Assembly (NCBI RefSeq): GCF_030389965.1
Contig: NZ_CP128400.1
Location: forward strand, 2,232,001-2,296,000
Origin: Candidatus Chlorohelix allophototropha
Lineage (GTDB): Bacteria; Chloroflexota; Chloroflexia; Chloroheliales; Chloroheliaceae
Length of the DNA stretch: 64,000 nt
Direction of reading: 5' to 3'
Part shown: positions 51,366 to 54,420 of the stretch, piece by piece
How the letters are laid out: every line of letters starts with the position of its first letter
How positions within the stretch are numbered: position 1 is the first letter of the stretch
Translations under genes and position numbers: made by a program
Notes under the pieces: generated by a model
The model's database searches: none
Seen by the model: the letters and a program-made list of their open reading frames with translations, nothing else
Told to the model about the DNA's origin: nothing

Positions 51366-51392
51366 AAGAACCGGGTGGGTAGCCCGGCTCTT
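51366..51392. terminator. Palindromic terminator, duplication unit 1
   Basis: AAGAACCGGG (51366-51375) and CCCGGCTCTT (51383-51392) form a stem with one mismatch; TTGTTTTGT follows on the plus strand. It ends the receiver gene from the other side and is the homologue of 52374-52401. Confidence 0.65.
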
Positions 51393-51440
51393 TGTTTTGT
51401 ACTGCTTAGTGATAGGGGGAATTGTTAGGAGGTGTGAATT

Positions 51441-51791
51441 CTATTTCAAGGCTGGGAATAATTTCTTCAACTCAGGGATTAGGTTGGGCTTGGTAATAAC
51501 TACTTTTAGATTGATGCCAGCGGCATCTACTGACTCATGTTCATAGTCAGTAAAAATCACAAACTCGGCGGTTTCCATGCCGGGAATTGACTGAAGAGTC
51601 TTACAATAATTGGGATAGTAGTTTGATTCCATAAAGTTATCTACTAACACAGCCTGCGGTTTGTATTCCATTGCTTGTGCGTAGCCCTCCCAAGAGGTTG
51701 CGGCTTCAAGCACTTCGTATCCATGCATTTCAAAGAATGCACCCACGAATTTTCGAAAAACATCAGTTTCATTTACAACAAGAACTACCAT
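51441..51791 (-). CDS. Stand-alone receiver-domain protein, copy 1
   Basis: 116 residues, a single CheY-like receiver fold without output domain. The phosphorylatable Asp is in AVLVDNFMES, the Thr in FVIFTDY and the Lys in VITKPN. The usual N-terminal acidic pair is altered (LVVNETD). It is paralogous to the protein at 52442-52792, and the surrounding DNA is duplicated too. A start at ATG 51791 has only a weak ribosome site. It may be a phospho-relay protein or a divergent, partly inactive receiver. Confidence 0.82.
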   Translation of the reverse strand: MVVLVVNETDVFRKFVGAFFEMHGYEVLEAATSWEGYAQAMEYKPQAVLVDNFMESNYYPNYCKTLQSIPGMETAEFVIFTDYEHESVDAAGINLKVVITKPNLIPELKKLFPALK

Positions 51792-52373
51792 TTATAACAA
51801 TTATTCTTTTCATACTAAAATTTGGCACAAAAAATGGTGGGGTGACGGGTTAGCGCCACCCCTGACTGAATGATGTGGCGGTAAACTCTCCTACCACGCC
51901 GTTGTGATAGGAAGCATAGCGCAACCTGCTGCAACGGTGCAGTAGGCTGAAAAGGCATATCCAATTAGAATTTAGGTATATAAACTAAAGTAGGATGTAC
52001 TATAACTATAATGCATATCCTATGCCAGAAAACCCGGCTAAATGAACCTAGTATTGGGGTTTGCTGCACACAAGCATCGTGTTTCTACTCTAATGATTGC
52101 TAAACAATCTAAAGAACACCTAAAAAATATCTAAAGAGTTTAGCTCCTAAGCACAGATATAATCGCTATCTGTAAAGATATTTTAATACAATTGAAAAAT
52201 AAATGCAAGTAAAGTAAAGTGAGAGTAAAGTTAGAAATATCTGCTTTTATTCAACATATCTAGTAGGATATTGATGATGCGCTGTTCCAGCAAAAAGGAA
52301 AGGCTCATCTACCACTGCTAAACATTTTCCGAAAAGGGTTAAGTTTCTTTCACTGCAACAATTCAAAAGATGC
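51792..52373 (+). ncRNA. Conserved structured non-coding element, copy 1 (core 51838-51962)
   Basis: No gene. Positions 51838-51962 are about 90 percent identical to 52835-52956, more than the adjacent genes are to each other. Stems: GGGGTG/CACCCC (51839/51857), GTGG/CCAC (51875/51894), GTTGTG/CGCAAC (51901/51920) and CTGCTGCA/TGCAGTAG (51926/51938) with an ACGG loop. Two differences between copies fall in stems and keep plus-strand pairing through G-U wobbles, and a shared G-U is present in the last stem; on the minus strand they would be A-C mismatches. That favours a plus-strand RNA, opposite to the receiver gene. Similarity continues weakly to about 52050; from there to 52373 nothing is visible. 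Confidence 0.5.
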
Positions 52374-52401
52374 AAGAGCCGGGTGGGTGTGCCCGGCTCT
52401 T
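52374..52401. terminator. Palindromic terminator, duplication unit 2
   Basis: AAGAGCCGGG (52374-52383) and CCCGGCTCTT (52392-52401) pair perfectly over ten bases; TTGTTTG follows on the plus strand, and the other side is less U-rich. Confidence 0.7.
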
Positions 52402-52441
52402 TGTTTGCGCTGCTTAAAGTAAGGGGAGTTAGGAGGGATAT

Positions 52442-52792
52442 TTATTTCAAGGCTGGAAATGCTTTCTTCAACTTAGGAACTATATTGGGCTTGGTAATAG
52501 TTTCTTTTAGATTGATACCAGAAGCATCTTCTACCTCACCCTCAAAGTCAGTAAAAATTACAAACTTAGCGGTTTCCATACCGGGAATTGACTGTATATT
52601 CTTACAAATAGTAAGACAAGAGAGTGATTCCATAAGGTTATCTACTAATACAACTTGCGGTTTGTATTCCATTGCTTGCAAATAGCTCTCGCTGGAGGTA
52701 GCGGCTTCAAGCACAGCGTATCCACGCATTTCAAAGAACCTACGCACGATTTCTCTAAAGACGGCAGTTTCATTTATAACAAGGACTACCAA
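52442..52792 (-). CDS. Stand-alone receiver-domain protein, copy 2
   Basis: 116 residues, starting at a TTG (52792) that aligns with the ATG of copy 1 and has AAAGGAAT upstream. The longer ORF to 52885 would translate the conserved non-coding element and is rejected. The receiver layout is as in copy 1: Asp in VVLVDNLMES, Thr in FVIFTDF and Lys in TITKPN, with NETA in place of the acidic pair. It differs from copy 1 mainly in the middle helix (LSCLTICKNIQS). The two arose by tandem duplication of about 1 kb. Confidence 0.82.
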   Translation of the reverse strand: MVVLVINETAVFREIVRRFFEMRGYAVLEAATSSESYLQAMEYKPQVVLVDNLMESLSCLTICKNIQSIPGMETAKFVIFTDFEGEVEDASGINLKETITKPNIVPKLKKAFPALK

Positions 52793-53257
52793 ACTATTTA
52801 TTCCTTTATGATAAAATGGGTATAAGAAAATAGCAGGTGACGGGTTAGCGCCACCCCTGACTGAATACTGTGGCGGTAAACTCACCTACCGCGCCGTTGC
52901 GATAGGGAGCATAACGCAACCTGCTGCAACGGTGCAGTAGGCTGAAAAGGTATATCCAATTAGAATTTAGGTGTATAAACTAAAGTAGGGCGTACTGTAA
53001 CTATTATGCTTTTCTATGGCAGAAAATCTTCTTGATTGAACCTAGTCTTGGGTTTTACTGTCTCCTATTCCCTTACCTCTGTCCCCCGCATGGTTAAACT
53101 ACCCAGAAGAAACCAAAAGATAAAACTTATTGGTAATCATTATTCTATAATAACGGTTTATATCTGTAAAGATTAAATTCAGGTCGAATAAGGTAAATAA
53201 ATAGTTAAAAATAGTGTTAAAGCACTGCTATTACTACACTTAGCTATGAATCCCGCA
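52793..53257 (+). ncRNA. Conserved structured non-coding element, copy 2 (core 52835-52956)
   Basis: Homologous to the element at 51838-51962, with the same stem order. Here the paired segments read GTTGCG/CGCAAC and CTGCTGCA/TGCAGTAG. The CCGC in the second stem pairs with GTGG through a G-U. Similarity continues at a lower level to about 53060 (AACCTAG, CTTGGGTTTT, possibly a weak terminator). The remaining bases to 53257 show nothing else. Confidence 0.5.
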
Positions 53258-53313: not shown

Positions 53314-54420
53314 TTATATAGTTCTAACCTTTTTGGTGCGCATCAGAAAGAGTTGCCCAATTGCGGCAACGTTGCTTGCTTTGAGCAAACCCCGCCGGGC
53401 GGTTGCGCTTACGCCCGCTTTACCTTCCAGTTCGTCCAAACGCTCATTGTTGGCTGCCATTTTTTCCAGCAACCGCCCAAAGGCTGGATTTTCCGTGTCG
53501 ATTCTAAAGCCCCAAACGGTACTGGCTTCTTCATCGCAGCGTTTAATCACATGCATATCATATTCGCGCGGTTCAAGCCCCATCGCTTTGTAGAAAGTCT
53601 GCGCTTGAGGCTTGATGTCGCGCAGATACATTGTGATATAGACCGAGAGGGTGAAGAATTTAATCATTGCGTGGTTAAGGAAACCCTTGAGCATGCTTTT
53701 AGACTGAGATTTCATGACCAAAGCGAAGAAATGCCCGTGTCGATGCTCATCATTGCACCAACGCCCAAAGGATTTGAAGATGGGATGGAAGCGCAACTCT
53801 GGATTAGCTTCCAGATGGTCAAATATAGTGATGTAGCGATAGTAGCCGATTATCTCGGAGAGATACACGGTGTAGCACATAATCTTGGGAGGAATTTTGG
53901 TGCGCTCTTTGGCTTGTGCCAGAAAGCCCAAATCGAACTCAATGTCGAGGTCTTGCATGGTGTGGGTCAGGAAACTGGCATGCCGTCCCTCATCACGGGT
54001 CATGTACTTGAAGGCATCCCGAAGGTTTGGCTCGGTGCAATGCTCGGCTATTTCGCGATAAAGTAGACAGCCGGAGAACTCACCCATGCTGCTGCGGCGG
54101 GCAAATTCTTCAAATTCTTGGCGGGGTAACTTTTCAAAAGGACCTTTGAACTCAGGGGTACGCACGAAATGACCCTTGTTAAGGTCGGCGCGAAACTCAG
54201 ACAAAATCTTCTCAAGTTCAGCCTTATGGCTGCTCAAATCCCATTTGTTTATCTGCTCAAAATTGGTGGTGTAGAAACGGGGCGCTAAAATATCTTTCTT
54301 GAGACCTTCAGCAGTGGTTTTGTTTGGGGCATTTACTACGGCTTTCTCGTAACCATCCACCGACAGGCTACCGCTATCGGCGGCAGGGCTAACGGCTGGT
54401 TTAGTTACTTTAAAACTCAT
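53314..54420 (-). CDS. acsF: Oxygen-dependent Mg-protoporphyrin IX monomethyl ester cyclase
   Basis: 368 residues, the length of AcsF/CHL27. This di-iron enzyme forms the fifth ring of (bacterio)chlorophyll using oxygen. Carboxylate and His iron ligands are visible in FARRSSMGEFSGCLLYREIA, in TRDEGRHASFLTHTM and in GRWCNDEHRHGHFF; WDLSSHKAELEKILSEFRAD is also typical. The first ~45 residues are a Ser/Pro/Ala-rich leader. Good ribosome site (AAGGAG). It stands alone with its own terminator; no other pigment gene is in the window. It marks the host as a phototroph or a close relative. Confidence 0.93.
   Translation of the reverse strand: MSFKVTKPAVSPAADSGSLSVDGYEKAVVNAPNKTTAEGLKKDILAPRFYTTNFEQINKWDLSSHKAELEKILSEFRADLNKGHFVRTPEFKGPFEKLPRQEFEEFARRSSMGEFSGCLLYREIAEHCTEPNLRDAFKYMTRDEGRHASFLTHTMQDLDIEFDLGFLAQAKERTKIPPKIMCYTVYLSEIIGYYRYITIFDHLEANPELRFHPIFKSFGRWCNDEHRHGHFFALVMKSQSKSMLKGFLNHAMIKFFTLSVYITMYLRDIKPQAQTFYKAMGLEPREYDMHVIKRCDEEASTVWGFRIDTENPAFGRLLEKMAANNERLDELEGKAGVSATARRGLLKASNVAAIGQLFLMRTKKVRTI

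Follow-up and report, generated by a model that had tools for sequence, protein, structure and literature searches.

The element repeated ahead of two tandemly arranged receiver genes of Candidatus Chlorohelix allophototropha is very probably a cis-acting leader, which would control the transcription of the receiver gene by attenuation. The fuller statement, in which this attenuator leader is placed under ANTAR-type control by a REC-ANTAR regulator, is one that we hold with moderate confidence. Computational analysis of the sequence, from which all the evidence comes, established the position and strand of the element, its covariation, its mutually exclusive pairings, its loop letters and the presence of a single ANTAR protein in the genome.

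The stretch of DNA analysed, hereafter the window, spans 64,000 nucleotides (contig NZ_CP128400.1, positions 2,232,001 to 2,296,000). As the original prediction had it, two tandem units of approximately 1 kb each combine a 116-residue receiver gene, a downstream terminator hairpin and the element; their spacing is 994–1001 nt, and both receivers match PF00072. Along the minus strand, the conserved flank is followed by the element, then by the ribosome-binding region, the receiver gene and the terminator. The features of both units are given below, with scores from a covariance model (CM) built from the seven leader copies of the genome; the TTG start of receiver gene 2 was picked by aligning paralogues.

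51366–51392, minus strand: terminator after receiver gene 1 (terminator scan).
51441–51791, minus strand: receiver gene 1, single-domain, 116 aa (open reading frame; PF00072 at 1.2e-6, just under the cut-off).
51828–51951, minus strand: leader RNA copy 1, comprising P1, P2, antiterminator arm, terminator and U-run (CM 137 bits; 36 nt upstream of the ATG).
51839–51862, minus strand: intrinsic terminator hairpin of leader copy 1, followed by ACCATTTTTT (terminator scan; pair counts).
51875–51884, minus strand: antiterminator 5' arm of copy 1 (partner 51850–51859).
51890–51911, minus strand: P2 of copy 1, CCTATCAC, loop AACGGC, GTGGTAGG (loop 51898–51903, A1 and G4).
51922–51949, minus strand: P1 of copy 1, CAGCCTACTGC, loop ACCGTT, GCAGCAGGTTG (loop 51933–51938, A1 and G4).
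51963–52019, minus strand: conserved flank of copy 1, putatively promoter-side from its position (repeat D2, 87% over 202 nt).
52374–52401, minus strand: terminator after receiver gene 2 (terminator scan).
52442–52792, minus strand: receiver gene 2, single-domain, 116 aa from the TTG start (open reading frame; PF00072 at 1.4e-10).
52823–52946, minus strand: leader RNA copy 2 (CM 133.5 bits; 30 nt upstream of the TTG start).
52834–52857, minus strand: intrinsic terminator hairpin of leader copy 2 (terminator scan).
52870–52879, minus strand: antiterminator 5' arm of copy 2 (partner 52845–52854).
52885–52906, minus strand: P2 of copy 2 (loop 52893–52898, AACGGC).
52917–52944, minus strand: P1 of copy 2 (loop 52928–52933, ACCGTT).

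Between units 1 and 2, the leader core is 91% identical (93% over the blastn stretch), whereas the receivers share 81% identity as genes and 71% as proteins, with a dS of 0.40. Thus, the non-coding part is truly better conserved than the gene, as had been proposed, and lies far above the level of synonymous sites. Two repeat stretches link the units, one of 300 nt at 80% within the gene and one of 202 nt at 87% holding the element. The repeated element is real, and conservation runs on past its stated bounds into the promoter-side flank, itself kept in part among the remaining copies. Recent duplication in tandem, or gene conversion, is very unlikely to account for this conservation in the absence of selection on an RNA. 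Indeed, even though the two window copies are adjacent and a histidine kinase elsewhere in the genome shows signs of recent copying, the gene dS of 0.40 stands against a change of 9% in the leader, none of the 21 copy pairs across two chromosomes has a leader less conserved than the gene (one pair being a tie at 64%), and the triple covariation described below would be left unaccounted for. Next to the tandem units, a minus-strand open reading frame of 368 aa (53314–54420) resembles AcsF, the Mg-protoporphyrin ester cyclase.

Across the whole genome (6.09 Mb in five contigs, two of them chromosomes), a protein search retrieved a receiver family of eight members, seven of which are preceded by the leader, on the same strand as the gene and 30–59 nt before the start codon. 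The CM recovered exactly seven leaders (117–137 bits), every one of them upstream of a receiver paralogue. Below these, at no more than 29.9 bits, came mirror images of the P1/P2 stems from copies already known, and then chance matches (17.5 bits or less); the search detected no stand-alone leader copy in this genome. The expectation that a covariance model would uncover further homologues thus held within this genome, where five more were found, but failed for other Chloroflexota, where none exceeded chance.

As all the CM copies lie upstream of receivers on the strand of the gene, the element is best read as a 5' leader and not as an antisense RNA. The RNA had first been assigned to the strand opposite to the receivers, with four plus-strand stems maintained by G-U wobble. 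A plus-strand antisense non-coding RNA of this kind is now extremely unlikely: the reverse complement does fold as well (z of −3.5 for the plus strand of copy 2), but the seven copies all stand immediately upstream of the gene, the U-run is confined to the receiver strand, and four of the seven copies (3, 4, 7 and 8) disrupt the proposed plus-strand stem GTTGTG/CGCAAC. The wobble evidence itself points the other way, as P2 and the terminator hold 11 G-U-only pairs when read on the receiver strand versus one on the plus strand. Less likely still is a mobile or palindromic DNA element, such as a MITE or a transposon end, spread by duplication; several hairpin-bearing copies per genome would fit this view, but no copy is located away from a receiver gene, the distance to the start codon is near-fixed and compensatory changes are present. 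A coding function for the leader was likewise rejected: the open frame seen by eye in copy 1 is lost elsewhere, through a gap of one base in P1 and altered lengths in copies 7 and 8, and no start codon is common to the copies.

The 5' leader runs from P1 through a linker of about 10 nt to P2, then to UUACCGCCAC, the terminator hairpin and the U-run. On the receiver strand, P1 reads CAGCCUACUGC, loop ACCGUU, GCAGCAGGUUG, and P2 of copy 2 reads CCUAUCGC, loop AACGGC, GCGGUAGG; the terminator hairpin of copy 1 is formed by GGGGUGGCG, CUAACC and CGUCACCCC, followed by the U-run. A naive terminator scan called both leader hairpins of the window intrinsic minus-strand terminators. The hairpin is found in all seven copies, with a weaker U-run in copies 2 and 5. 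Folding of the core on the receiver strand gave a z of −4.5 for copy 1, of −2.7 to −5.1 for copies 3, 4, 5, 7 and 8, and of −2.9 for copy 2, over a slightly longer stretch; for copy 2, the predictions give greater stability to another fold of the P1/P2 region. The proposal of a selected structured RNA is thus upheld, the receiver-strand folds being beyond chance and accompanied by compensatory changes.

The 5' arm of the terminator has two alternative partners, namely its own 3' arm or UUACCGCCAC. Counted over all copies, 91.4% of cells are paired in the terminator form (versus 38–62% when the arms are slid by one to three bases) and 92.6–92.9% in the antiterminator form (versus 30–62%). The covariation score of the terminator was reached by none of 500 shuffles, a control that ignores the relatedness of the copies. 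One terminator position, taken together with both its alternative partners, reads C-G-C in copies 1–4, A-U-A in copies 7 and 8, and A-G-C in copy 5. The change from C-G-C to A-U-A keeps both pairings, which is the signature of a mutually exclusive switch, and the CUAAC at the terminator loop is invariant because the antiterminator pairs through its UAA. When the growing transcript was folded, the antiterminator was favoured before the 3' arm of the terminator in six of seven copies (the exception being copy 5), and the terminator was favoured once this arm was complete. With just seven related copies available, few independent changes underlie the covariation, and the support that it lends to the switch can be described as good but not overwhelming. 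A candidate anti-antiterminator, pairing the 3' arm of P2 with the antiterminator arm, was discarded: complete in copies 1 and 2 only, it is disrupted elsewhere by one or two mismatches.

From these alternative pairings, we propose that the terminator hairpin would form by default, so that RNA polymerase would halt ahead of the receiver gene. In the permissive state, the arm UUANNGCCAC would pair with GUGGCNNUAA, seizing the 5' arm of the terminator and allowing the receiver gene to be transcribed.

The two hairpins upstream of this switch resemble those of ANTAR-target RNAs, which are defined by two hexaloop hairpins with A1 and G4 and a short linker (PMC3369931, PMC8164766). The linker measures 2–25 nt in ANTAR-target RNAs and 5–12 nt in eut (PMC8164766, PMC3369931), and some of the actinobacterial ANTAR RNAs reported act without a terminator (PMC8164766). 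In the leader, each of the seven copies has AAYGGC, with A1 and G4, as its P2 loop, and five copies including both from the window have AYCGUY, again with A1 and G4, as their P1 loop. These five have two adjacent hexaloop stem-loops, and the P1–P2 linker of 10 nt, measured from the extended P1, falls inside the 2–25 nt range. In copies 7 and 8, P1 carries a pentaloop, UUGGG, without A1 and G4. The eut type of overlap between P2 and the terminator is absent; in copy 1, the terminator starts 27 nt past P2, with the antiterminator arm in between. A search of the window for dual A1/G4 hexaloops with a terminator no more than 60 nt away returned the two leaders only, and 60 shuffled windows gave none, a result partly owing to the lack of hairpins in the shuffled windows; by themselves, the loop letters would match at random roughly once in 256.

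The genome encodes one ANTAR protein (83.7 bits versus a cut-off of 27.3), a REC-ANTAR of 210 aa that matches Rv1626 at 2.4e-62 and EutV at 1.1e-40, and its gene is not close to any receiver gene. In the EutV–RNA structure, G4 is held by Arg142, Lys149 and Glu160 (PMC8934654). Alignment indicates that these three residues are kept in the REC-ANTAR of this genome, as are Lys143, Met172 and Arg175, and that R168, N173 and R177 of EutV are replaced by Q, D and S. ANTAR proteins are widespread in the class, being encoded by 23 of 31 genomes, and other class members have them while lacking the leader; this speaks against ANTAR control, as do the three replaced residues and the distance of the ANTAR gene from the receiver genes. 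On balance, ANTAR is a fairly probable controlling factor of the leader.

That P1, the linker and P2 sense a different ligand, be it a metabolite, an ion or some other RNA-binding protein, is possible if on the whole doubtful. The pairing, terminator and folding evidence would also suit such an attenuator, P2 stands clear of the terminator, none of the Rfam riboswitches matches, and the two copies that lose the loop letters of P1 preserve its stem through a G-C to U-A change. Nevertheless, the retention of A1 and G4 in seven P2 and five P1 loops, in a genome whose one ANTAR protein bears the G4-contact residues, argues for ANTAR. Given that P2 lies off the terminator and that two copies lack the loop letters of P1, we filed the element as one that works like an ANTAR-controlled attenuator and is a candidate member of that class.

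Under ANTAR control, the P1 and P2 hexaloop hairpins would be the most likely binding site of the single REC-ANTAR regulator of the genome. Once phosphorylated, the regulator may hold both hairpins and favour the antiterminator, in which case binding at P1 and P2 would be transmitted to the switch; the direction of this control is the one that we consider plausible.

The leader shares with the ANTAR-target RNAs known from Enterococcus eut leaders, nasF, amiE and actinobacteria its two small hairpins (both with A1/G4 hexaloops in five of the seven copies), the linker of some 10 nt, an intrinsic terminator placed after the hairpins in the leader of the regulated gene, and a genome with one REC-ANTAR. 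It departs from them in that a distinct antiterminator arm intervenes between P2 and the terminator and does the switching, in the loss of the P1 loop letters in two copies, and in its targets, which are single-domain receivers rather than nitrogen or ethanolamine genes. Riboswitches, T-box and RAT/BglG leaders likewise combine, in a 5' leader, an antiterminator and a terminator that exclude each other. Unlike riboswitches and T-boxes, however, the leader has no match to the corresponding Rfam models, and unlike RAT/BglG systems, it displays no RAT-type single hairpin overlapping the terminator. The suggested comparison with Rfam 15 (4227 models) returned no known family, as no match in the window passed the gathering threshold and the sub-threshold matches were attributable to chance.

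Outside this genome, the CM detected no leader in the class (158 genomes, 157 besides this one), and a search of 400 genomes of the phylum yielded 11 weak matches (E of 0.002–0.044 each), no more than expected by chance. Similarly, blastn of the element against 60 relatives retrieved short chance matches only. The idea of an unknown Chloroflexota RNA class is not supported at the scale of the phylum, with nothing above chance in the other genomes searched and dual A1/G4 hexaloops pointing to the ANTAR-target kind. No relatives of the receiver family were detected in genome_contigs or viral_contigs, and 15 near relatives provided weak receiver matches only, in two genomes (E of about 1e-13, versus 1e-51 or better within the family). 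Within the genomes searched, the receiver family is lineage-restricted, with the same restriction as the leader. We tentatively suggest that the leader could represent a new class of attenuator, confined to one lineage of phototrophic Chloroflexota, in which ANTAR or another ligand binds hairpins that lie clear of the terminator, a separate antiterminator arm does the switching, and stand-alone receivers, possibly feeding back, are controlled in parallel.

Most ANTAR-target RNAs catalogued so far come from Firmicutes, Proteobacteria and Actinobacteria, and the catalogues PMC3369931 and PMC8164766 do not mention Chloroflexota. The host, a phototroph of the Chloroflexota, has a type I reaction centre, and the architecture of its leader offers a test case for ANTAR action when the hairpins miss the terminator. 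If the proposed control is true, a regulon of seven stand-alone receivers behind one RNA switch would form an unusual two-component network, in which a regulator acting at the RNA level sets the amounts of several small receivers simultaneously.

The receivers studied here are single REC domains, in which the phosphorylatable Asp (D51) and the active-site Lys (K101) are invariant; near the N-terminus, the alignment shows Asn where the first acidic residue usually stands, or His in the case of the eighth member. Judging from these residues, the receivers could accept phosphate despite the Asn substitution. They may act as feedback or phosphate-sink partners within a two-component circuit, and one could reasonably conjecture a circuit formed by a kinase, the REC-ANTAR regulator and small receivers in competition.

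A hybrid histidine kinase, 97% identical between both chromosomes, is flanked by two pairs of receivers. Its gene (560 aa) is located at L007:2531-4213 and L008:5224-6906, the 97% applying at the DNA level. The neighbouring receivers, copies 3 and 4, are only 67% identical as proteins, a difference suggesting that only the kinase was recently copied or underwent gene conversion. The eighth paralogue, without leader (C1:2823645; L082:4610-5020), has phoU-like and comEC-like genes as neighbours, as judged by eye, and may reflect an unregulated ancestral state or the loss of the leader. On chromosome 1, copies 4 and 8 adjoin phage-like genes (L008:1-4200), with amidase-like and tail-like open reading frames recognized by eye from the list of open reading frames.
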